Positions 27,441-62,432 of a stretch of 64,000 bases of DNA are shown here, in pieces. A program made the translations under genes and the position numbers. Below the pieces are notes generated by a model. The model saw only the letters and a list, made by a program, of their open reading frames with translations, ran no database searches and was not told the DNA's origin. Source of the stretch: Malaciobacter mytili LMG 24559 (GTDB lineage: Bacteria > Campylobacterota > Campylobacteria > Campylobacterales > Arcobacteraceae). The DNA is taken from the NCBI RefSeq assembly GCF_003346775.1, contig NZ_CP031219.1, positions 62,001-126,000 on the forward strand, given 5' to 3'. How positions within the stretch are numbered: position 1 is the stretch's first letter; each line of letters starts with the position of its first letter.

Positions 27441-30400
27441 CTAATGAGAAATAGAAACTTCAAGAATCTTTTCTTTTTTCTTTAAGGCCAAAATATAAAA
27501 GATAGAAGGAATAATAATAAGTGTTAAAAATGCAGAAGAAATCATCCCTCCAATCATAGGTGCAGCAATTCTTTGCATAACTTCACTTCCTACACCATTT
27601 ATATACATAATAGGTATTAGTCCTCCTAAAATTGCAAATAAAGTCATAAGTTTTGGTCTAAGTCTTAAAACTGCCCCTTTAAAAACAGCATGATAAATAT
27701 GCTCTTTTGTAAACTCTAAACCTTTTTGTTTTAATTCAAACATTGCTTCATGTAAATATACAAGCATTACTATTGAAGTTTCTGCTGCTACACCAAGTAA
27801 AGCTAAAAAACCTACAATAACAGCAATAGAAATATTAAAATTTAAATACTCTAAATAAAATATTCCACCTGTTAAAGCAAAAGGTAGTGTAAAGAAAATA
27901 ATAAAAGTATATGTTACATTTTTTAGAGCAAAATAGATTAAAATAAAAATAATCATCAAAGTAAGAGGAATAATATATGCTAATCTTTGCATAGCTGATT
28001 CTAAATATTCACTTTGTCCTGCCCACTCAAAATAGTAACCAGCAGGAAGTTGAATCTCTTCTAAGGCAGCTTTTGCATTATCTTTATACTCTTTAGCACT
28101 TACTTCACTTTTTGGTGTAATATATATAAAGTTTACATTTAAAGCTTTCTCTGATTTTATAACAGAAGGACCTTCTTCATATTTTAAATCTGCAAATAGT
28201 TTTAAAGGTTGAAATCCTAGTTTTGTTTTTATTTGAAGATTTTCTAAAGCTAAGATATTTTCTCTTTGTGTTGTTTCATATCTTAAACTAATAGGGTATC
28301 TTTCTAATCCTTTATAAAAAGTTGAAACCTCTGCTCCTGATACACCCAAAGCAATAGTATTTAAAATATCATCTTTTGTAATTGAGTATCTTGATAACAT
28401 TTCATCTTTTACATCAATATTTAAATAATATCCTGAGTTTATTTTATCAGAAGAAACAGCCAATGTTTTATCATACTTTTTTAGTTTTTGTTCAATTTTA
28501 AGGGCTAAAGCTTCTAGTGTTTCATGATCATTTCCATATAGTTTTATACCAAGAGGAGTTCTAATACCTGTTAAAAGCATATCTATTCTTCCTCTAATTG
28601 GATAAGTCCAAGAGTTTATAAGCCCAGCAACTCTTAGTTTTTCATCCATTTCTTGCATAAGTTTTTTATATGTCATCCCTTCTCGCCATTGATCTTCACT
28701 TTTTAAAGTAACAATAGTTTCAATCATAGCAAGAGGTGCAGGGTCAGTTGCACTATCTGCTCGTCCAGCTTTTCCAAATACAGTTTGTACTTCAGGAAAT
28801 GATTTTAAAATTTTATCTGTTTTTTGAGTTAATTCTTTTGATAAATCAACCCCTAATCCATAAGGAGTTACAGGCATATACATAAAAGTTTGTTCATTCA
28901 TCATAGGCATAAATTCCCAGTTTTGTTTTTTATAAACGGGAATTGCTAAAATAATTGTTCCTATAAAAATAGCTATTATTAAATATCTAAAATTTAAAGA
29001 TAGTTTTAAAAGAGGAGAATATAGTTTTATAAAGAATTTATTTAAAATATTTTTATCTTCACTTATAATTTTACCTTTAATAAAAAATATCATTAAAATA
29101 GGAACGATAGTAATAGATAAAATAGCACCACTTATCATTGCAAAAGTTTTAGTAAAAGCAAGAGGTGTAAAAAGTCTTCCTTCTTGACCTGTTAGGGCAA
29201 ATATAGGTAAAAATGATACCACAACTAAAATAAGAGCAAAAAAGATAGGACGACCAACTTGCTTTGCAGATTTGATAATAATTTCTACTCTTTGTTTATT
29301 TGAAATATCTTCTTTGCCTTGAAGGTGTTTATGGGCATTTTCAACCATTACAATAGTTGCATCAACCATAGCTCCAATTGCAATAGCAATTCCTCCTAAA
29401 CTCATAATATTTGAACCTAAACCAAAAGCTTTCATTAGTAAAAAAGTTAAAAGTACAGTAATTGGAAGAGTAAGAATTATAATTAGTGCTGACCTTGCAT
29501 GAAATAAAAATAAAGCAGTAACCACCATAACAATAATTGATTCTTCTATTAAAGTAGATTTTAAAGTATCAATAGCCTTATCTATTAATGAAGTTCTATC
29601 ATAAGTTTCAACTATTTCAACTCCTTGAACCTTTAAAGTTTTTAGTTTCTCTTTTACAGCTTTTATTACTTTATATGGATTTTCATCATATCTAACTACT
29701 ACAATTCCTCCAACAGTTTCCCCTTGACCATTTAAATCAGCCATACCTCTTCTTGATGCTGAAGTTACATTTACATTTGCAATATCTTTTATTTTTAGTG
29801 GAATATTATTTTCAGTTTTAATAGTAATATCTTCAATATCTTTTACGCTTTGTAAGTAACCTCTTGCAGTGATTAGGTGCTCATAACCATTTTCTAAAAT
29901 AATTCTTCCACCTTTATCATTATTACTTTTTTCTAAAGCTTTTTTTATCTCTTCAATACTTACATTATATTGAACCATTTTATTTTGGTTTAAAGTAATT
30001 TCATAATTTCTAATAAATCCACCAATAGAAGCTATCTCACTAACACCATCAACTCCTAAAAGTGCAAATTTATAATAATAATCTTGTAGAGTTCTTAATT
30101 CATCTAAACTTTTTGTATCTGATTTTAATGCATACTCATATGCCCAACCAACCCCTGTTGCATCAGGACCAATAGAGATTTTTGCATCTTTTGGAAACTC
30201 ATTTTGTAGTTGTGAAAGTTGTTCTAAAATTCTATTTCTTGAATCATAAAGGTCTGTTCCATCTTTAAAAATAATATAAATTAAAGCATTTGCAAAAGAA
30301 CTCATAGCCCTTACTGTTTCAATATTTGGTAAACTCATTAAGTTTGAGATTAAAGGATATGAAACTTGTTCTTCAATAGTTTTTGGACTTTGTCCTGCCC

Positions 30401-47928: not shown

Positions 47929-48005
47929 GCGTCTGTGGCTCAACTGGATAGAGCGCCGGGTTTCGGCCCCGGTGGTTGTGGGTTCGAATCCTACCAGGCG
48001 TGCCA
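47929..48005 (+). tRNA. tRNA-Arg (anticodon UCG), CCA encoded
   Basis: The 77-base cloverleaf is complete. Acceptor GCGTCTG pairs with CAGGCGT, the D arm has GCTC...GAGC, the anticodon stem CCGGG/CCCGG closes the loop TTTCGGC with UCG at 34-36, the T arm contains GTTCGAATC, and discriminator G and CCA end the gene. It reads CGA (and by wobble other CGN) codons. Its 3' end from 47987 is the attachment core of the integrated element. Confidence 0.93.
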
Positions 48006-48008
48006 TTT
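47987..48008. other. left attachment site (attL core)
   Basis: Twenty-two bases from AATCCTACCAGGCGTGCC to ATTT cover the 3' half of the T arm, the acceptor strand and CCA of tRNA-Arg plus three bases beyond. The same 22 bases recur at 62411-62432. The tRNA gene remains intact. Confidence 0.9.
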
Positions 48009-48056: not shown

Positions 48057-48078
48057 GGTGTCAAATAGGTGTCATATA
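48057..48078 (+). repeat. tandem 11-bp repeats near the left end, possible integrase arm sites
   Basis: Two head-to-tail copies, GGTGTCAAATA and GGTGTCATATA, overlap the stop codon of the integrase. A similar pair lies at 62299-62320 in the same orientation near the other end. In a circular form they would flank the core at about 50 and 90 bases on either side, as arm-type integrase sites do. Confidence 0.55.
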
Positions 48079-49202
48079 GTGCCAACACTATTTTGAAAAC
48101 ATTCTCCAAATTTATCATTTTTAACTGGGATATATTCTGAATATTTTTCAAGTGTCACTTTTACATTCTCATGTCCAGCAATTTTGGAAACATAAGTTAT
48201 ATCTTCTCCATTTGAAATTAGAGTTGAAATAAATGTTCCTCTTGTTTGATGTAGGTTTCTATAACTTACATTTGCTTTTTTTAGTGTTGGAACCCAAATT
48301 TGTTCTCTAATTTTTCCCGCACTGTGGAAATGTTTATTTGTTCTTTCTGTTAAGAATACATTAGAATCACTCTTTCCAGTAATCTTAAATTGATTTTCTA
48401 AAAAAGGAAGTAATGTTTTTACAATTGGAACAATTCTTCTACTTTTGGTAGTTTTCAAAATTGTTTTATGATTTCCATTTACAATTTGTTCTTTTATAGA
48501 AATAGTCATTTTTTCAAAATCTATTGATTCCCATTTTAAGCCAATTAGTTCTGATGCTCTAAGTCCTGTAAAGAAAAATGTGGCTATCATATTTCTATTT
48601 TGCCCTTCTGAAATACTTAAAATTTTATTTATTTCACTAGGCTTAAAAGGTGTAAGTTTAATTCTTTCAACTTTTGGTTTTTCAGTTTCATTTAACTTCT
48701 TAGCTTTTGAAACGGGATTATTATCTATAATTTGAGCTTCAATAGCATCTTCAAACATACTATTTATACAACTTCTTATTTTTAGAATTGTAGCTTTTGC
48801 TAAATGTTCTTTTTCTTGAAGATTATTTTGCCATATAGTAATATCTTGCCCACTAATTTCATTCAGAGTTTTTTCTCCAAAAGTGGGTTGAATATATTTA
48901 ATATAATTCTTTCTATGAGCATAAATTGTTGAAGAACATCTATTCCCCTTTCTTAATTCAAATGATTTCTCAATAAATTCATCAACAGTAGGAATATTTT
49001 TCTTTTTGTTTTTAAAGAACTCCCCACTTGATATTTTATAGTTTAAAGTGGGTAGAAGTTTTTTTTCTGCAAACTTCCAATTAGATGGTGTATAATCAAG
49101 ACGTAAAGGTTTTCTATATCTTTGTCCATTATGAGTAAAGTCAACCCATATAGTCTCTTTTACACCTTTTTTTGTTTTTGATTTTTTAACATATAGTTTC
49201 AT
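48072..49202 (-). CDS. int: tyrosine recombinase (integrase)
   Basis: The 376-residue site-specific recombinase has an N-terminal DNA-binding region, a SAM-like core-binding domain (about 75-165), and a catalytic domain with Arg215 (TGLRASELIGLKW), His318 and Arg321 (HQTRGTF), the second His in AGHENVKVTLEKY and nucleophile Tyr354. All catalytic residues are present. I chose MKLYVKK at 49202, since AAGGA lies 7 bases upstream; a longer frame starts at 49229. It points at the tRNA from 67 bases away, the normal layout for the enzyme that inserted this island. Confidence 0.92.
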   Translation of the reverse strand: MKLYVKKSKTKKGVKETIWVDFTHNGQRYRKPLRLDYTPSNWKFAEKKLLPTLNYKISSGEFFKNKKKNIPTVDEFIEKSFELRKGNRCSSTIYAHRKNYIKYIQPTFGEKTLNEISGQDITIWQNNLQEKEHLAKATILKIRSCINSMFEDAIEAQIIDNNPVSKAKKLNETEKPKVERIKLTPFKPSEINKILSISEGQNRNMIATFFFTGLRASELIGLKWESIDFEKMTISIKEQIVNGNHKTILKTTKSRRIVPIVKTLLPFLENQFKITGKSDSNVFLTERTNKHFHSAGKIREQIWVPTLKKANVSYRNLHQTRGTFISTLISNGEDITYVSKIAGHENVKVTLEKYSEYIPVKNDKFGECFQNSVGTI

Positions 49203-49285
49203 TGTATTTTCCTTATAAGTGGCAACCACAAATCAACCATAAATACATATGGATTATAGTTGATTATATGCTAAGATAGACTTAA

Positions 49286-50372: not shown

Positions 50373-51668
50373 TTAAGAAGCTATTTTTATAGGTAAGTAG
50401 TTAGTTGTATTTAGACTTGAAAGTTTTAGTTCAGTATTTCTATTTTTATACATCAAGATTTCAATACTTTTTGTTGCAGTAGTTCCATTTTTATAAAGAA
50501 CATCTTTTTTCAAATAATTGTAATTTTGCTTTTTTGAAAAATCTTCTAAATGTGGATTATGGTTGTTATAATAAATAAATGAATATTTTCCATTTTTGAT
50601 TTTGTTTAATAATCCTCTATGGTTAAAATTATTTATTCCATAATTATATGAACAAGATAAAAAGTCTTTTGAAGTTGATTCTTCTTCATAATTTACATAA
50701 GGAGGGTCAAATAAAACTAATGCAGTATTATCTTTATTTACTTTTCTTAAAACAGTTTCATATTTTGAAATTGAGAATTTAATATTTACAAGATTAAAAA
50801 TTTTGTTAAAAATTTCAACCTTATTTATCATTAAAGGAACTTGTCTCAATTTTTTTTCACAGAAACAGAAACTAAAAGAATTTAGTTTTGTTTTCATATT
50901 AAAATTTAACATTCCTCCCTGAACATTATGCATAAGATATAAGAATAAAGAAGCTCTTCTAGGGTTCATTTTTTTTGAAATTTCAAGTTCTGTAAATTCT
51001 TTATGAATTCTTTTAAACCACTCTTTTCCTTCTTCTTTTGTAGAAGGCTGGAATTTGTTAAAAAGTTTCATATATTCTAAATCAATTGATGCCAAATGTC
51101 TTTGAACTTGTTTAGGGTTTCTTTGAACTTGTCTAAATGTATTTATTAGAGATGGGTTTATATCACTTAAATATAAGTCTTTAATTCCATTCTCAATTAA
51201 AATTGGTAAAGAGTTATAAACAGAACCAAATCCACCTAGAAAACTTTCATAATATGATTTGAAAGAATTTGGATTGGTATTAAAAAAATCACTTAATATC
51301 ATTTGTTGTGTTGACTTATGATTTTGTTTGCTTCCTCCATAAGGAACAAAAGCAATTTTTTTTGTATCACTATCATCAGAAAATGATTCAGTATTGCAAA
51401 TATTGTTATCTTTATTTTTAAGAAATATAGATAGTTCAGACTCTGATAAAGAGTTCAAATGATTATGGAGTAAATTATCCTTTGAGTATTTAACAAGTGA
51501 TTGATTTACATACATTAGTTGTGAAGTGCGTGTTTTATTTATATTTTTTATAATAATAGGATTTGTTTTTTCAACAAAATTTTTTTGAATAAGTTTAAAC
51601 CCTTTTCTAATAACCTCTTTTGGTGAACAAAGTTTTTTTTCTACTAGTTTTAATAATGATTTAATCAT
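50373..51668 (-). CDS. orphan Dam-like N6-adenine DNA methyltransferase
   Basis: The 431-residue protein has an N-terminal extension of about 105 residues without a known fold, then a class-alpha methylase of the Dam/DpnM kind: VPYGGSKQNHK, the SAM motif YESFLGGFGSVYNS, the acidic loop LYLSDINPSLIN, and DPPY motif IV in LFDPPYVNYEEES near residue 320. Both SAM and catalytic motifs are intact. No cognate nuclease is adjacent. Such solitary methylases protect phages and plasmids from host restriction or regulate replication. Confidence 0.82.
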   Translation of the reverse strand: MIKSLLKLVEKKLCSPKEVIRKGFKLIQKNFVEKTNPIIIKNINKTRTSQLMYVNQSLVKYSKDNLLHNHLNSLSESELSIFLKNKDNNICNTESFSDDSDTKKIAFVPYGGSKQNHKSTQQMILSDFFNTNPNSFKSYYESFLGGFGSVYNSLPILIENGIKDLYLSDINPSLINTFRQVQRNPKQVQRHLASIDLEYMKLFNKFQPSTKEEGKEWFKRIHKEFTELEISKKMNPRRASLFLYLMHNVQGGMLNFNMKTKLNSFSFCFCEKKLRQVPLMINKVEIFNKIFNLVNIKFSISKYETVLRKVNKDNTALVLFDPPYVNYEEESTSKDFLSCSYNYGINNFNHRGLLNKIKNGKYSFIYYNNHNPHLEDFSKKQNYNYLKKDVLYKNGTTATKSIEILMYKNRNTELKLSSLNTTNYLPIKIAS

Positions 51669-53334: not shown

Positions 53335-54342
53335 ATGAGAAAATTAAAAAATTGGACTGTCATAATGAAGTCTATAAATCAAAAAAACAAAGATAATGTA
53401 AAATCTTTTTTGAACTTATATGAATACATTTATGACTTAAAAAATGGACACCCTAACCATTCTATGAAGAGCTTCCATAAAGTTTTAGGTTTTGAAAAAA
53501 GACATAATCAAATATCTAAAAATTTTTTATCTTTACAAATGAATTATGATTTACAGAAGAATTTTCTGATAGGTAAAAAAAGAAGTGGAAGAAAAGCAAG
53601 TTTTGGTAGAAGTATTCTTTTATCTTTACCTAATGAGGTAAAGTTGAAAGAAGAGGACTATAAAAAGATTAGAGATTTAATACTTATAAGATTAGTGAAT
53701 TTTATAAGTAAAGAATACAATCTAAACTATACAAAAGAGCAAAGAGATAAATTTATAACAAATTATATATTATCAACTGCACATCTGCAAAACTCTAACA
53801 ATCATATAAATATATTAGTTCCTAATATTTTTATAGATTATAATCAGGGTAATAAATTGATTAGAGTTGACCTAGGGAAAAGAAATATCTCTTATTTTGT
53901 AAAAAAATCTTTCAATTATATAATGCTTAAATATTTTAATCAAAATTATTTAGATTATGAGATTAAGTCACATAAAGAAACTAAAAAACTAAATTCACAA
54001 TACACTTATAAATTAAAAGAAGTTGAGCAGAAAAAGGATGACTTGAAATCTCAAGTAAACAACATCAAAAATCTTTTTCAATCAACTAATGAAAGTATTT
54101 TAAAAATTCATAAGAGGTTAAATATCTATGTAATTAGGATGGATATTGCTTTAAAAGAAGCAAATAGAGATAAATTTGAGAAAAATAAAGAGTTAGTAAT
54201 TAAAAATATTGAAAAAATGAAAAATGAAATTAGTAAAGATTTAACTAATAATGATAATAAGCCTGACTTGTCAATATTTGAAAAAATAAAATCAGAAATG
54301 AAAAACACCTCTTATAATAATAGTATAGATTTAAAAAGGTAA
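53335..54342 (+). CDS. candidate HUH-type relaxase
   Basis: Around residues 150-160 the 335-residue protein has HLQNSNNHINILVPN, resembling the HUH motif of relaxases and rolling-circle nucleases (H.....NH.H), but the final His is Asn159. GKKRSGRKASFGRSILLSLP near residue 80 is also similar to a stretch in mobilisation proteins. The C-terminal third is a long coiled coil (QKKDDLKSQVNNIKNLFQST). Two tiny genes follow within a few bases. I think it nicks and mobilises the element, but a replication role is possible. A candidate nick region lies upstream. Confidence 0.5.
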   Translation: MRKLKNWTVIMKSINQKNKDNVKSFLNLYEYIYDLKNGHPNHSMKSFHKVLGFEKRHNQISKNFLSLQMNYDLQKNFLIGKKRSGRKASFGRSILLSLPNEVKLKEEDYKKIRDLILIRLVNFISKEYNLNYTKEQRDKFITNYILSTAHLQNSNNHINILVPNIFIDYNQGNKLIRVDLGKRNISYFVKKSFNYIMLKYFNQNYLDYEIKSHKETKKLNSQYTYKLKEVEQKKDDLKSQVNNIKNLFQSTNESILKIHKRLNIYVIRMDIALKEANRDKFEKNKELVIKNIEKMKNEISKDLTNNDNKPDLSIFEKIKSEMKNTSYNNSIDLKR

Positions 54343-55022: not shown

Positions 55023-55880
55023 ATGATAGAAGATTTTATTATTCAAAAACCAAAAGCTTTAATATATATTTCAAATGATTTAACAAAGAGAGAAAGATTG
55101 GTTTTGAATTTTTTAATATTAGTTGCTAGAAGTCAAATAAAAGAAAAAAATATTAAATGTGAGTTTATGTTAGCAGATATAAAAAATGTATGTAATATTA
55201 GAGATTTTGGAGTAATTAGGGATATATTAAAAAGCTTTAATAGTAATATGTTAAATATCGATTTATTAAAAGAAGAAAAACAATTAAAAATTATAGAAAA
55301 TTTAACAATAAATTCTTCAAAAGTTGAAGTTTTATTTTCAGAAGATTTTTTTAATTTATTAAAAATAAATTCATATGCTTCAATTGATTTAAAACAACAA
55401 ACAAAACTAAACTCAAAATACTCAATACTGCTCTATGAAATGATAATTGATTATTACAGAGAAAGTAATCACTTTATGCAGATACCTCATATTAAATTAG
55501 ATATCTTCAAAAACTTAATGGGGTTTGAAGATATAACAAACTATCAATTAAAAACAACAGTATTAAATACAATAATTAAAGACATAGAAAAAGAAATAGA
55601 TTTTTATTTACAATATGAATTTTTAAAAAAGCAAGGAAGTAAAAAATATAACTATATAGAGTTTAAATTTTCTAAGAAAAAATTGAAGCCTAAAATGACT
55701 AATGAGCAAATTTTAAAAGAGATTGAGAGACAAAGGGAAAAACTTCAAGAAGAATCAGAACAATTGACTAAAAAAAGATGGGAAATTTGGGAAGAAAAAA
55801 AAGAATTGGAAGAAACTATTGAGAGATATAAAAATGTAATGAAAGAATTTGATGATAAGTGCTGGGGATATATTTCTTAA
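55023..55880 (+). CDS. rep: Rep_3-family plasmid replication initiator
   Basis: The 285-residue protein fits the Rep_3 (RepB/RepE-like) initiator layout: two winged-helix domains, with NSKYSILLYEMIIDYYRESN ending the first and IKLDIFKNLMGFEDITNYQL with VLNTIIKDIEKEIDFYLQYE in the second; YNYIEFKFSKK ends the core. A C-terminal coiled coil rich in Glu and Arg follows. The repeats at 54921 are likely its binding sites. It implies that this island began as, or can replicate as, a plasmid. Confidence 0.75.
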   Translation: MIEDFIIQKPKALIYISNDLTKRERLVLNFLILVARSQIKEKNIKCEFMLADIKNVCNIRDFGVIRDILKSFNSNMLNIDLLKEEKQLKIIENLTINSSKVEVLFSEDFFNLLKINSYASIDLKQQTKLNSKYSILLYEMIIDYYRESNHFMQIPHIKLDIFKNLMGFEDITNYQLKTTVLNTIIKDIEKEIDFYLQYEFLKKQGSKKYNYIEFKFSKKKLKPKMTNEQILKEIERQREKLQEESEQLTKKRWEIWEEKKELEETIERYKNVMKEFDDKCWGYIS

Positions 55881-56223: not shown

Positions 56224-57696
56224 ATGTCAAAACAATATTTAAAATCAATTTCTTTCCCTAAAGTGTTTAATGATGAAAATAAAACAAAAACAATAAAGTT
56301 AGCATTTAATGAAAACGAATTTGACTTATATAAAATGGTTAAAATATTATCATCAGAGGAGATTCGTGAAATACTTAAAGTATCTTCATATGATGAAATT
56401 GAAGAAGGTGCAAATAAAGAAAACAGAAAGTTAAATAATTATTGTATTACAAAATTAAAAGAATATTTTAGAAGTAAAAGAATTAATTTGAAAACAAATT
56501 CTAAGACAGGTACTTTTGCTAATAATAAACAACAAGAGATATTTGGTTGGTATCCATATTTAGAGGGGTACTCTTATGATTTTATTCAAGATATAATAAA
56601 TCAAATTTCTCCCAAACCAAAGAAAATATTTGAACCATTTTCTGGATCTGGAACTACTGTTATAGTATCAGCTTTGGATGGTATTGAAGTTGGATATTCA
56701 GAAATTAATCCTTTAATGCAATTTATATGTAAAACCAAATTTGAAGCGATAAAATATGCGTCAGAAATATTAGGTGATAAAATAAAAATAGATAGTTTTT
56801 TAAAAAAGCTTCCAATAACAAATTTTAATAATGTAAAATTGACTAATAAACATAATTATATGATTGAAAAAGGTTATTTTGATCATAAAATATTAGTTCA
56901 GTTTATTTATTTACTTCAAAAAATTAGAGCTTCGCATTTATCTCATAATATTAAAGACATTTTGTTAGTAGCAATTGCTTCTATTACAGTAAAAGAATCA
57001 AATATGATTAGAAGAGCCGATTTAAGAAAAAAGAAAAATAATGAATTTAAGGAAATTGAAGAAGATGTAGTTTCATTATTTCAAAGAACTGTTGAAAAAT
57101 TTATAAATGATTTATTATTGTTTGAGAATCTAACAGTATCTAATTCTAGATTAGTATCAAACAATGCAAAAGTTGTCAATGAAAATGAATTTAATACTTA
57201 TGATGCGATTATTACTTCTCCTCCATATATCAATGGAACAAATTACTTTAGAAATACAAAGTTAGAACTCTTAGTATTAGATTTTATTGATAAAGAAGAA
57301 GATTTAGCAAAATATAGAGATGAATCAATTACTGCAGGCATTAATAATGTATCAAGTAGAATTCCTAAACCAGAAATTTTAAGTTATCTTTCTTCTATAA
57401 TCAAAGAGTTAGAAGAAGATAATTATGATTCGAGAATACCTAAATTAGTAAAATCATATTTTAGTGATATGAAAATAGTATTTAATAATTCTTATAAACT
57501 TTTAAAAGATAATGCTGATTGTTTTATCGATATAGGTGATTCAAAGTTTAAAAATACACATATTCCAGCAGATAGAATTTATGAAGAAATAGCGAAAGAA
57601 ATAGGTTTTACCTTAGTTGATAAGATAGTATTGAGAAGTAGGTTTTCAAAAGATGGAACACCACTAAAACAATATCTTTTACATTTTAGAAAATAA
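56224..57696 (+). CDS. DNA methyltransferase with SPPY motif (first of a pair)
   Basis: The 490-residue protein carries SAM motif I as FEPFSGSGTTVIVSAL at residue 136, followed by GYSEINPLMQ, and motif IV TSPPYING at residue 332. SPPY indicates amino-methylation, N4-cytosine or N6-adenine. The two motifs are separated by about 190 residues, probably the target-recognition part, and IDIGDSKFK lies near the end. The first 120 residues may be a DNA-binding extension. The next methylase begins 22 bases later. Confidence 0.8.
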   Translation: MSKQYLKSISFPKVFNDENKTKTIKLAFNENEFDLYKMVKILSSEEIREILKVSSYDEIEEGANKENRKLNNYCITKLKEYFRSKRINLKTNSKTGTFANNKQQEIFGWYPYLEGYSYDFIQDIINQISPKPKKIFEPFSGSGTTVIVSALDGIEVGYSEINPLMQFICKTKFEAIKYASEILGDKIKIDSFLKKLPITNFNNVKLTNKHNYMIEKGYFDHKILVQFIYLLQKIRASHLSHNIKDILLVAIASITVKESNMIRRADLRKKKNNEFKEIEEDVVSLFQRTVEKFINDLLLFENLTVSNSRLVSNNAKVVNENEFNTYDAIITSPPYINGTNYFRNTKLELLVLDFIDKEEDLAKYRDESITAGINNVSSRIPKPEILSYLSSIIKELEEDNYDSRIPKLVKSYFSDMKIVFNNSYKLLKDNADCFIDIGDSKFKNTHIPADRIYEEIAKEIGFTLVDKIVLRSRFSKDGTPLKQYLLHFRK

Positions 57697-57717: not shown

Positions 57718-58872
57718 TTGAAAAAATCAAATGCTTCAAAATTAGTTAAAAATAATTGGGAAAAGTTTAGAGATAATTTACCTTATAAGGTACATCCTTA
57801 TTCAAAAAGAAATTGGGGAAATAATTTACATTCACTTTGTTCTTACCAAGGTAAATTAAAACCCGCATTAGGACATTTTTTAATATCTGAATTTACTTCA
57901 AAGAATATGACTATTTTAGATACTTTTTCTGGTGTAGGAACAATTCCTTTCGAAGGTGCTTTACAAGGTAGAAAAGTTATTGGTAATGATTTGAGTAAAG
58001 TAGCTTATGCCAACTCTCTTGCAAAAGTTGGGGAAACAAATAGAGAAGAAGTATATAAAATAATTGATAATTTAAAAAAATATATAAAAGAAAATATTCC
58101 AACTAAAAAAGATATTGACTCTGTTGATGTTTCTTTTAATAAAAAAATCCAAGATTATTATCATGAAAATACATTTAAGCAAATTCTTAGTGCTAGAAAA
58201 TTTTTTATTGAGCACGATATTAAAGATGCAAATTATGCATTGGTATTTTCAAGTTTGTTACATATTTTACATGGGAATAGACCTTATGCCTTATCTAGAA
58301 CTTCACATCCTATAACTCCTTTTGCTCCAAAAGGTGAGTTTATAGATAAAGATTTAATAGAAAAATTAATGGAAAAAGTTGAAAGATCTCTTACTTTAGA
58401 AGAAGAAAAATCTATTCAAATTGGAAAAGTAATTTATGGTGATGTTTTTGAGTTAGATAAAGCATTAGAATTAGAAAGTGTAGATTCAATAATTACTTCA
58501 CCACCTTTTTTTGATTCTACCAAATTTTATTTAGCTAACTGGATAAGACTTTGGTTTGCGGGTTGGAATAAAAAAGATTTTGATATAGAAAAAGAAAAAT
58601 ATCTTGAAACAAAGCAAAAAAAAGATATTTCAATTTACAATGAATATTTTAGAGTATGTAATAATGTATTAAAAATAGGTGGAACTATTATTATGCACTT
58701 GGGTGTATCTAAAAAAGCTAATATGGGAGAAATGATTTTACCATTTGCAGAAGCTAACAATTTCAAACTAATAGGAATGTTTATTGAAGATGTTGATGGT
58801 AATGAAAAATTTGGTATTAAAGATCAAGGTTCAGTAAAAGGACATCAATTTATGTTTTTAGAGAAGATTTAA
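57718..58872 (+). CDS. DNA methyltransferase with SPPF motif (second of a pair)
   Basis: The 384-residue protein has motif I in ILDTFSGVGTIPFEGALQGR at residue 66, then VIGNDLSKVAYANSL, and motif IV TSPPFFDSTKF near residue 260. It starts at TTG, eight bases after AAAAGGAA. N-terminal SYQGKLKPALGHFLI and the motif I region recall TRM11-like/DUF1156-type methylases. It differs from the first methylase, so the pair probably modifies the two strands of an asymmetric site or two different sites. It converges on the HNH nuclease gene at a strong terminator. Confidence 0.8.
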   Translation: MKKSNASKLVKNNWEKFRDNLPYKVHPYSKRNWGNNLHSLCSYQGKLKPALGHFLISEFTSKNMTILDTFSGVGTIPFEGALQGRKVIGNDLSKVAYANSLAKVGETNREEVYKIIDNLKKYIKENIPTKKDIDSVDVSFNKKIQDYYHENTFKQILSARKFFIEHDIKDANYALVFSSLLHILHGNRPYALSRTSHPITPFAPKGEFIDKDLIEKLMEKVERSLTLEEEKSIQIGKVIYGDVFELDKALELESVDSIITSPPFFDSTKFYLANWIRLWFAGWNKKDFDIEKEKYLETKQKKDISIYNEYFRVCNNVLKIGGTIIMHLGVSKKANMGEMILPFAEANNFKLIGMFIEDVDGNEKFGIKDQGSVKGHQFMFLEKI

Positions 58873-58908: not shown

Positions 58909-59901
58909 TTATTCTTCTAAACCTAATATCTGTTTATTCTCTAGAGACAATTTATCTATTAAATCAAAACCTTCAATAATTTTTTTAAATTCTTGAATTC
59001 TCTTCGGAAAGTCAGACTGCTCTCTTATTTGCCCTAGGTATTTATCCATAGCTAGATTGACATCAACATCAGTATTAGTCAAAGGTTTTGTTGATGTTAA
59101 TAGTTCTAAATTTGCACCAGTAATTTGTGCTAATCTATAAAGTTTAGAATTAGATTTAAAAAACTTACTTGGCCAATGATGTTTTTTCTTTAAATTACAT
59201 CCTCTACATAATAGTTCAGCATTACTTTCAGTTAGAGGCCATAAATAAACATTTGGCAAAATGTGGTCAATTTGATAACTTTTTCTATCATCAATATCTA
59301 AATCACATTCACAGCTAAAACATTTTGAATCAAATTTCTCAAATAGCTTTTTAATCTCTATTTTTTCATCTAGAACATCAGTGAAAAGTTGGGCTGTTCT
59401 TCTACTTGTTGCAGATTTTAACATTTCATCTCTTGTTCGAAATGGGTTTAAAATTGCATTTGCAGCAGCTTTACATGCTCGGCATTCAAATTGTCTTACT
59501 AATGGACCTTTTGAAGATGATTTTTTTGCAAAATGACTAAATGGCAGAGTCCTTCCACAAGCTCCACAAATTTTATAATATGATTCTGCTGATTCTAATG
59601 AGTTTTTAAAAAAAGCATTCCAAAATCTTTGAGTAGGTAGTGATGTAGCTTTAATAATATCAGGGTTCCAATGTTCAAATGGTAAATCACTCTTTGATGA
59701 ATGATTAAAACCACAAGATTTACACACCCAATTTGCATTTTGATAAGCATCTTCAACAGATAATAATTCTTTACCAATATCGACATAGTTGTCTTTTTGG
59801 CATGATAAGCAAGTATAATGAACTTGCGCATTTTCATATGGTAGATCTAAGAATTTAAACCCAGATATTCTACCACGAGTTTCTCTTTTTTCTTTAGCCA
59901 T
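58909..59901 (-). CDS. HNH endonuclease with several zinc-ribbon knuckles
   Basis: The 330-residue protein has CLSC, CKSC, CGAC and CRAC pairs in the N-terminal half, that is, zinc ribbons likely for DNA binding. The HNH domain near residues 195-240 has CFSC, IDHILPNVYLWPLTESNAEL and LCRGCNLKKKHHW: the catalytic His of the DH pair, the Asn and the Cys-type zinc ligands. I chose MAKEKRETRG (59901), seven bases after AAAAGGA; a frame from 59940 is longer. Next to two methylases, it is the probable restriction nuclease of this set, though a modification-dependent nuclease is possible. Confidence 0.75.
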   Translation of the reverse strand: MAKEKRETRGRISGFKFLDLPYENAQVHYTCLSCQKDNYVDIGKELLSVEDAYQNANWVCKSCGFNHSSKSDLPFEHWNPDIIKATSLPTQRFWNAFFKNSLESAESYYKICGACGRTLPFSHFAKKSSSKGPLVRQFECRACKAAANAILNPFRTRDEMLKSATSRRTAQLFTDVLDEKIEIKKLFEKFDSKCFSCECDLDIDDRKSYQIDHILPNVYLWPLTESNAELLCRGCNLKKKHHWPSKFFKSNSKLYRLAQITGANLELLTSTKPLTNTDVDVNLAMDKYLGQIREQSDFPKRIQEFKKIIEGFDLIDKLSLENKQILGLEE

Positions 59902-59988
59902 GAATAATCCTTTTACAGCTTTACAAATGAGAATATTCATGTTATAATTTAATAGTCTTTTAACGAATATTCAACATTTGTTAATTAA

Positions 59989-60151: not shown

Positions 60152-60667
60152 ATGAATGAAGAAGAATTAAGAAAGAAAATTTATGAAATTTTAGGTTTAG
60201 AGTTTGGTTCATTATCAAATGAAGGTGGCAATGATTGGATTCGTGCTAAAAATCAAGCAATAGAAGAATATAAACAAATAGAGTTTGAAAAATTAAAAAA
60301 TGTTAAGTCGACTGATTATTTAAAGATTGACAAAAATTCAGAAGAATTTAATATGGCTTTAAATTCAAAGTTTATTGAAACAAGTAATTTTAAGATATTG
60401 ATAGCACAAAGAAATGACTTAACTAATGAAGAAATTGATAAGCTAATTGTCTTTGGTAATAAAGATATATTAATTAATTTGGCTAAATATCAAAAATTAA
60501 CTTCAGATCAAATTGATAAAATAATTCCTAATAGTGTCTTTTTAACAAAAAAAAATATAATTGAAAATCAAGAATTAAATTCCAATCAAAAAGAAAAAAT
60601 ATTAGATTTAATGGCGAAAAGTAGTTTAGATTATAAAGAATTAATAAATAAGTTAAATGAAGCTTAG
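60152..60667 (+). CDS. LRV-like repeat protein (171 aa)
   Basis: The 171-residue protein has helical repeats: LIAQRNDLTNEEIDKLIVFG, NLAKYQKLTSDQIDKIIPN, and NIIENQELNSNQKEKILDLM. The pattern (L...A....L(T/N)..(E/Q)I..L) is that of leucine-rich variant (LRV) repeats seen in bacterial HEAT-like proteins. The N-terminal region contains FGSLSNEGGNDWIRAKNQAI. There is no catalytic motif. Its last 11 bases overlap the ExoIII gene, so the two are made together. Role in the cassette unknown. Confidence 0.55.
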   Translation: MNEEELRKKIYEILGLEFGSLSNEGGNDWIRAKNQAIEEYKQIEFEKLKNVKSTDYLKIDKNSEEFNMALNSKFIETSNFKILIAQRNDLTNEEIDKLIVFGNKDILINLAKYQKLTSDQIDKIIPNSVFLTKKNIIENQELNSNQKEKILDLMAKSSLDYKELINKLNEA

Positions 60668-61421
60668 AATCTTTTCATGGAATGTAAATGGTATTAGAGC
60701 TATTTCAAAGAAAAATGTATTTGAATGGTTAGATGAATATAAGCCTAATATTTTAGCATTGCAAGAAATTAAAGCTACCGAGGAACAAATTCCAAAATTA
60801 TTTGAGTATTTTTATACTAATCGTATTGTAAATAGTGGTAGATTAAAAAATCAATCAGGTGTGTTGACATATTCAAATATTGACTTTGTTTCTAATGATT
60901 TTTGTGAAAATATTGATGATAGACTTGAAGGTCGAATAATTGAACATAATATTAAAGATGTTTGTATATTTAATGTATATATTCCTAATGGAAAGGCTTC
61001 TAAAGAAAGATTACAATATAAACTAGAATTTTATGAAAAACTATTGTATCACAGTTCGGATTTAATAAAAAAAGGTAAGTCAGTTATTATTTGTGGAGAT
61101 TTTAATACTGCTCATAAAGATATTGATTTAAAACAAACAAAAATCTTAAATAGAAGTGGTTTTACTGAAAAAGAAAGAGAGTATTTAGAAAAATTCTTTG
61201 AACTAGGTTTTATTGACTCTTATAGATATATACATGGGAGTAAAAAGAATTCTTATACTTGGTGGTCTTATAGGTCAAAAGGTCGCGAGAAAAATGAAGG
61301 TTGGAGAATAGATTATATATTAGTTTCTGATGATTTAAAAGATAAGATAATTGATGCATTTATTTTAAATGAAGTTTTTGGTTCAGATCATTGTCCTATT
61401 GGAATTGAAATTAAATTGTAG
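60657..61421 (+). CDS. xth: exodeoxyribonuclease III / AP endonuclease
   Basis: The 254-residue enzyme is complete: RIFSWNVNGIRA (catalytic Asn), LALQEIKA (metal-binding Glu), FNVYIPNG (Tyr), ICGDFNTAHKDIDL (catalytic Asp and Asn), SYTWWSYRS, WRIDYILVS and GSDHCPIGIEI (Asp-His pair). It cuts at abasic sites and degrades 3' ends of duplex DNA. As a cargo gene of a mobile element, between an LRV-like protein and an HNH nuclease, it is unusual; most bacteria keep their xth in the core genome. It overlaps the upstream gene by 11 bases. Confidence 0.88.
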   Translation: MKLRIFSWNVNGIRAISKKNVFEWLDEYKPNILALQEIKATEEQIPKLFEYFYTNRIVNSGRLKNQSGVLTYSNIDFVSNDFCENIDDRLEGRIIEHNIKDVCIFNVYIPNGKASKERLQYKLEFYEKLLYHSSDLIKKGKSVIICGDFNTAHKDIDLKQTKILNRSGFTEKEREYLEKFFELGFIDSYRYIHGSKKNSYTWWSYRSKGREKNEGWRIDYILVSDDLKDKIIDAFILNEVFGSDHCPIGIEIKL

Positions 61422-61446: not shown

Positions 61447-62145
61447 ATGAATAGCGAATCAATAAAAGACAAATATTTAAATTCTTTAAAAACTTTTGAT
61501 GACTTTGTTACTGTGTCAGAATGGGCTATAAAATTTTCAGAACTTTATCCTGAAGAATTAAAAAAAGCAGAGAGACAAGCTTTTAATCAACGTAATGAAA
61601 CTACTGGACTTAGGGAAATTGCAGCAAGAATATCTTCTCGTTTAGCAAGAGGTGCTTTTGTTGGTTTAATACAAATTGATGATAGTGAACGCCCAAAAAA
61701 GATTAAGTATATTACAAAAGAGGAACAAGATAGAAACATTCAAATAGAAATTGATAATGATCTAGAGCCTTTAAGAAGACAAGATATTATTAATAATGCT
61801 AAAGATAGTATGAATATTATTGAATTGTATAGAATTTCAGAGTTTGAAAATATTCAAAGAGGATTTAAACTTTTTTTTGGAATTGATTTTGAAATTGATC
61901 ATGCACAAGCATTATTAAATGATGTTGAACAAGGAATTCACCATCCTAATAACTTACAATTATTATTAAAATTTCATAATAGTAAAAAAAATAAAAAGAG
62001 TTGGGAAAGGTTTAGTTTTAAAGAGCAAGAAGAATATATAAAGAATGCTATTAAGTTACAATCTGTAGTTGCTGAGAAATTCGATATTGAAATAAATGAT
62101 AGAATTTTAGAATCATTATTAAATAGACTTCAGAAAGTTTATTAA
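61447..62145 (+). CDS. HNH nuclease, restriction-enzyme-like (232 aa)
   Basis: The C-terminal half has FEIDHAQALLNDVEQGIHHP, NNLQLLLKFHNSKKNKKSW: the DH catalytic pair, the HHPNNLQLL and the N-KK of HNH restriction enzymes such as HphI-like nucleases. The N-terminal part (WAIKFSELYPEELKK) is helical and probably binds DNA. TTATGGAG lies before the ATG. It follows the ExoIII gene by 25 bases. There are no zinc cysteines, so it differs from the HNH at 58909. It ends near the right end of the element. Confidence 0.72.
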   Translation: MNSESIKDKYLNSLKTFDDFVTVSEWAIKFSELYPEELKKAERQAFNQRNETTGLREIAARISSRLARGAFVGLIQIDDSERPKKIKYITKEEQDRNIQIEIDNDLEPLRRQDIINNAKDSMNIIELYRISEFENIQRGFKLFFGIDFEIDHAQALLNDVEQGIHHPNNLQLLLKFHNSKKNKKSWERFSFKEQEEYIKNAIKLQSVVAEKFDIEINDRILESLLNRLQKVY

Positions 62146-62410: not shown

Positions 62411-62432
62411 AATCCTACCAGGCGTGCCATTT
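62411..62432. other. right attachment site (attR core)
   Basis: An exact copy of the 22 bases of attL, starting AATCCTACC. Eleven bases of CTCCTGATAAA separate it from GTTCGA, the sequence that precedes it in the tRNA T arm, suggesting that the homology of the original attP was once longer or interrupted. Confidence 0.88.

Follow-up and report, generated by a model that had tools for sequence, protein, structure and literature searches.

The window, a stretch of 64,000 nucleotides from the genome of Malaciobacter mytili LMG 24559, contains a 14.4-kb element integrated at a tRNA-Arg(TCG) gene, and this element carries an ExoIII gene (xth). The ExoIII gene was taken to be cargo DNA because a tyrosine integrase and a 22-bp exact direct repeat of the tRNA-Arg 3' end (47987-48008 = 62411-62432) bound the element. 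The features identified at the locus, in order of position, were as follows.

47929-48005, forward strand: tRNA-Arg(TCG), the insertion site of the element (ARAGORN)
47987-48008, forward strand: left attachment repeat (tRNA-Arg 3' end), a 22-bp exact direct repeat with 62411-62432
48072-49229, reverse strand: tyrosine integrase of the element (Phage_integrase 5e-20)
53335-54342, forward strand: putative mobilisation (relaxase-like) protein, its role assigned by eye; 29% identity to a protein of the JAMOQH Rep3 element
55023-55880, forward strand: Rep3-type replication initiator (Rep3_N 2.7e-12)
56224-57696, forward strand: DNA methyltransferase 1, predicted N4-cytosine type (N6_N4_Mtase 3.4e-8; PADLOC MTase_II 4.6e-79)
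57718-58872, forward strand: DNA methyltransferase 2, motif IV TSPPF, predicted N4-cytosine type (N6_N4_Mtase 1.9e-10; PADLOC MTase_II 2e-22)
58909-59940, reverse strand: HNH nuclease with Cys pairs, candidate restriction endonuclease (HNH 5.7e-4, slightly below the Pfam cut-off)
60152-60667, forward strand: predicted short alpha-solenoid protein, 171 aa, earlier called 'LRV-like' (AlphaFold pLDDT 89, 11 helices)
60657-61421, forward strand: predicted ExoIII/Mth212-like AP endonuclease of the mobile clade, 254 aa (TIGR00633 2.9e-75; closest solved relative Mth212; clade support 100/99)
61447-62145, forward strand: HNH protein, 232 aa, in the same operon as ExoIII (25-bp gap after ExoIII; own Shine-Dalgarno sequence)
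62411-62432, forward strand: right attachment repeat (22-bp exact direct repeat)

The cargo therefore comprises two DNA methyltransferases, an HNH gene on the opposite strand, the 171-aa gene, ExoIII and a second HNH-like gene, and the first-pass annotation was right to place ExoIII in one block with HNH enzymes. Methyltransferase 1 has motif I, EPFSGSGT, ahead of motif IV, TSPPY. The HNH protein at 58909-59940 gave PADLOC matches to Cas9 HNH and PtuB (best 2.1e-7), and the putative relaxase had no Pfam match. An empty integration site was sought in congeners, in which the gene flanking the insertion site is absent. A Dam-like protein (50373-51668; YGGSKQ...DPPY by eye) without a Pfam match was also seen in the window.

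The ExoIII protein matched TIGR00633 over its full length (253 bits against a cut-off of 99) and Exo_endo_phos at 1.3e-28; EEP families were the only ones matched, with no Vsr domain found, and PADLOC returned no match for it. All of the active-site residues are kept (N9, N11, E37, Y108, D148, N150, D219, D244 and H245), which bears out the earlier description of a complete ExoIII active site within cargo DNA, and the catalytic N, E, Y, D-x-N, D and D-H are invariant in the native copy and the five mobile copies that were aligned. The closest solved structure was that of Mth212 of Methanothermobacter (3w2x/3fzi, E 4e-70), and the residues by which Mth212 recognises uracil, K125, N153, S171 and R209 (PMC6202378), are present in the window ExoIII as K122, N150, S167 and R206. 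Since the native xth of the host has the same uracil-contact residues, they are not diagnostic of the mobile genes. Two positions allow a comparison with NApe, an AP endonuclease, and NExo, a 3'-phosphatase (PMC6294502): residue 168 is glycine, which NApe shares, and residue 111 is asparagine, which NExo shares. On this analogy, the enzyme would be expected to act on AP sites and perhaps on 3'-phosphates. The xth genes of Campylobacteraceae are reported to belong to the Mth212-like family, and HpXth to degrade nicked and recessed duplexes in the 3' to 5' direction (PMC6093668). The window ExoIII is a full-length homologue of Mth212 and of the native Campylobacteraceae Xth, with the same catalytic residues; unlike the native genes, which are chromosomal and vertically inherited, it belongs to a mobile clade found beside methyltransferases.

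Three xth genes above the cut-off were detected in the window genome (G000), two mobile and one native. The window ExoIII is thus not the sole xth, and the first-pass annotation, which had proposed looking for a further chromosomal copy, is upheld on this point. The native gene (C1:986222) is flanked by radical-SAM, RNA-binding and TetR genes, and the second mobile gene (C1:2755040) is carried by a Tn7-like element that adjoins mnmG. A survey of 104 family genomes turned up additional full-length xth genes in four: two such genes in the window genome and one each in G007, G038 and G064. A sixth member of the mobile clade came from the MAG contig JAMOQH010000119.1. In a maximum-likelihood tree of 65 sequences, the six mobile ExoIIIs formed one branch (support 100/99), apart from the native Campylobacterota xth genes, which track taxonomy and point to vertical inheritance. 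The window ExoIII is therefore an intact, Mth212-like enzyme of a mobile lineage distinct from the host xth. This lineage has two sublineages and is carried by integrative, Tn7-like and Rep3 elements. The plasmid xth of Sulfuricurvum kujiense (pSULKU01 29577-30319) was considered as a clade member and rejected, as it has stops and a frameshift and a native-like sequence; it was left out of the tree and the clade counts. This broken gene lies on the margin of a defence island of the plasmid, in which NERD, DUF3883 and Qat genes are found.

We then considered the gene with which ExoIII overlaps. The two reading frames, 60152-60667 and 60657-61421, share exactly 11 bases (ATGAAGCTTAG) on the forward strand, in agreement with the first-pass annotation. 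Judged from sequence context, translational coupling of the two genes is plausible, because the ExoIII start has no visible Shine-Dalgarno sequence whereas the next gene, at 61447, is preceded by GGAGAT. The name 'LRV-like' given to the 171-aa protein could not be verified. None of eight homologues matched Pfam LRV at E values up to 5, and while the founding member of the LRV family has an N-terminal cysteine (4Fe-4S) cluster, there is no cysteine in the whole 171-aa sequence. The AlphaFold model is a confident all-helical repeat fold, and the protein is predicted to be a short alpha-solenoid; the nearest solved folds were of the armadillo/HEAT type, with Z scores of 8 to 9 that are within the chance range for helical repeats and may reflect a common arrangement only. 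Its C-terminal repeats resemble short proteins that are widespread in one related genus of the order (L088-L113).

Homologues of the 171-aa protein were found in G064 (68%), G007 (60%), G013 (broken) and G444, all in islands, and none were found in viral contigs or plasmids. The overlap and the weak ribosome-binding context could indicate a dedicated two-gene system in which the solenoid protein targets or regulates ExoIII, and the two genes do share an element in three of the four family genomes that have the solenoid (hypergeometric 8.7e-5). To that extent the pairing proposed in the first-pass annotation stands. However, the genes adjoin in the window only; in G007 and G064 a distance of 4.7 to 4.9 kb separates them. 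Of the six mobile ExoIIIs, five have no solenoid next door, three of them none nearby, and in G013 and G444 the solenoid is present without a mobile xth. Elsewhere the 171-aa gene lies beside TniQ, methyltransferases or restriction-like genes, with no adjoining ExoIII. A dedicated system of this kind is therefore very unlikely; the solenoid is a separate defence-cargo gene and not a fixed partner of ExoIII, although in the window, where it would lie upstream of ExoIII in the same transcript, it may couple the translation of ExoIII.

A more consistent neighbour was found in the DNA methyltransferases. All six mobile ExoIII genes lie less than 2 kb from a methyltransferase gene with motif I before a TSPP[Y/F] motif IV, which suggests, from motif IV only, that these neighbours are N4-cytosine methyltransferases. 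The distance between the two genes is 123 bp in G007, about 145 bp for the second copy of G000 (where the methyltransferase is divergent), 267 bp in G064, 345 bp in G038, 1.1 kb in JAMOQH and 1.8 kb, measured to the gene end, in the window. When all six frames were scanned within 1.5 kb of each gene, the methyltransferase motif was detected at four of six mobile genes and at none of 56 native xth genes (Fisher 2.7e-5). For the two genes missed by the scan, the motif lies within 2 kb in JAMOQH and beyond 2 kb in the window, though the end of the gene there is 1.8 kb away. The same scan on other defence cargo gave 0/7 for the 232-aa HNH family and 1/5 for the solenoid. As three of the six members belong to Tn7-like elements that all occupy the mnmG site, the six loci are not fully independent, and proximity to a methyltransferase is partly to be expected for any gene in a defence island.

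These observations bear on the possibility that the extra xth is simply a repair gene hitch-hiking on mobile elements, serving DNA repair in general, for instance while an element becomes established, and functionally unconnected with restriction. A native xth is already present in the host, and other plasmids and phage-like contigs carry xth genes at loci which, in almost all cases checked, are missing a methyltransferase-like motif: plasmid xth genes in other phyla have ordinary neighbourhoods, and the ExoIII relatives on viral contigs are distant, with no such motif nearby except for one NPPF. The existence of a single clade with recurrent methyltransferase neighbours, across two sublineages and several kinds of element, argues against hitch-hiking, which we consider unlikely.

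What remains constant across the six loci is the methyltransferase and ExoIII, and the partner effector of the methyltransferase varies. The methyltransferase is followed by a UvrD-PD-(D/E)XK protein in G007, by a HerA-like ATPase and a UG5-nitrilase reverse transcriptase in G038, and by PRTase-CE, ORC-CDC6-like and CARF proteins at the second copy of G000; two restriction-like proteins, assigned to no family, are encoded at the G064 locus. At three loci ExoIII has its own divergent promoter and is not in an operon with a nuclease. The DNA of the Tn7-like elements of G000 and G007 is about 87% identical on the mnmG side and through the 3' half of xth; beyond this, one 103-bp block (77%) of the 5' part of xth aligns, and nothing of the methyltransferase does. 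Because identity drops sharply within xth (L006:8684-9490 compared with L012:3453-4259), it looks as if recombination inside the gene has swapped the methyltransferase side between elements. The Tn7-like elements beside mnmG, with TniB/TniQ-type genes, were seen at L006 (G000:C1:2746000-2764000), L012 (G007) and L044 (G038). Their defence cargo differs in each and begins with xth and the methyltransferase, and in the element of the window genome the 571-aa end gene is in fragments. At another locus (L013:7496-9103, G013), a methyltransferase has identical SSLDN repeats encoded by a 15-bp tandem repeat, whose copy number could vary.

The clearest restriction operon of the clade is on the single MAG contig JAMOQH010000119.1. 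The gene order is a small HTH gene, an MvaI/BcnI restriction enzyme (MvaI_BcnI 6.5e-49) and, 3 bp behind it, ExoIII, with the TSPPY methyltransferase divergent. Five other MvaI/BcnI systems of Campylobacterota had no ExoIII within 1.5 kb, and ExoIII is therefore optional in such systems. The window differs from JAMOQH in having HNH nucleases and two methyltransferases. Its restriction endonuclease candidates are the HNH proteins, a search of its genome gave no MvaI/BcnI enzyme, and JAMOQH is the one clade locus with a definite enzyme of this type.

Could ExoIII be part of a base-excision mode of restriction, as the first-pass annotation had raised, in which a PabI-like glycosylase makes abasic sites and an AP endonuclease converts these to breaks? 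The AP endonucleases of E. coli boost restriction by PabI, and enzymes of the PabI family are present in Campylobacteraceae and Helicobacteraceae (PMC10273834), so that an AP endonuclease in a restriction context has a precedent. However, a Pfam search of the proteins of the element, several of which match nothing at all, revealed no glycosylase family; the nuclease candidates are HNH proteins, and the published AP endonuclease is the host's own. Base excision is the least probable of the readings considered here, and highly improbable in itself. The broader suggestion of a restriction-linked role is genuinely supported by the relatives: they form one clade, lie near a methyltransferase in every case and once directly behind a restriction endonuclease, but neither a PabI-like partner in the element nor a special pairing with the solenoid was found.

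Taken as a whole, we favour the interpretation, with a probability of roughly 45%, that ExoIII is an accessory nuclease of methylation-based defence modules. That the gene belongs to a mobile lineage linked to TSPP[Y/F] methyltransferases of restriction-modification or related defence modules is highly likely, and a role for ExoIII in the defence module is probable. The direction of its action is a more tentative matter, and we would put erosion of cut foreign DNA at slightly less than even odds. The methyltransferase would mark self DNA, and the variable partner (an HNH or MvaI/BcnI nuclease, UvrD-nuclease, HerA or PRTase-CE/ORC) would attack unmarked DNA. ExoIII could then act on the resulting nicks, 3' ends or abasic/uracil sites and erode the 3' strand, which would prevent the resealing of cut foreign DNA; its repair activities may also clear up incidental lesions in the host. 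A role on foreign DNA that has been cut or damaged is favoured because ExoIII lies behind a restriction enzyme in JAMOQH and ahead of an HNH gene in the window, and because the host xth and nfo of E. coli promote, and do not relieve, restriction by PabI (PMC10273834).

The constant partner of ExoIII is the methyltransferase and not any one nuclease, and a repair role would therefore fit as well. ExoIII may guard the host as Vsr does, repairing lesions tied to the methyltransferase, such as the uracil left when N4-methylcytosine is deaminated, or abasic sites that arise at methylated positions, through its AP endonuclease activity and the possible dU endonuclease activity of Mth212-like enzymes. 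The Vsr short-patch repair endonuclease, associated with 5-methylcytosine methyltransferases, is likewise a repair-type nuclease linked to a DNA methyltransferase; a Vsr gene adjoins an MvaI/BcnI enzyme in G294 (L146:2793-3098), an arrangement comparable to that of the JAMOQH ExoIII, and the residues for uracil recognition are kept. On the other hand, these residues also occur in the native xth, the JAMOQH ExoIII sits behind the nuclease and not with the methyltransferase, and N4-methylcytosine is considered less prone to deamination than 5-methylcytosine. Compared with Vsr, ExoIII has an unrelated fold (EEP), and its methyltransferase neighbours belong to the TSPP[Y/F] type. We regard a guarding role as rather unlikely, and continue to favour an accessory nuclease of the defence module. 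A wider proposal, possible but doubtful, is that a dedicated ExoIII lineage forms part of the standard equipment of N4-cytosine methyltransferase defence modules, either as the counterpart of Vsr in 5-methylcytosine systems or as a shared arm that erodes DNA, and is exchanged between elements along with the methyltransferase.

AP endonucleases are usually regarded as housekeeping repair genes, and in the open literature (subscription papers were outside the scope) we found no report of an ExoIII gene tied to a restriction-modification operon. Our analysis suggests that the mobile ExoIII clade is an unrecognised helper of restriction-modification, rather than the specific partner of an overlapping repeat protein. 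If so, this branch would add a repair-type nuclease to the restriction-modification toolkit, and whether the extra nucleases of such systems finish off cut phage DNA or shield the host from the systems' own chemistry would become testable.

The 232-aa HNH protein encoded downstream of ExoIII belongs to a family in which DFExDHA...GxHHPxN...HNxKK is invariant in seven homologues; its predicted structure is poor in the HNH half. Members of this family (window 61447-62145; L130-L136) are appended to several unrelated kinds of defence loci, with neighbours that include a type I restriction-modification specificity subunit, a probable restriction enzyme, AAA/HNH genes and a DndB-like gene. Near the family member of G073, regularly spaced FQYIICFGS translations (L131:2346-3675) suggest a CRISPR array.
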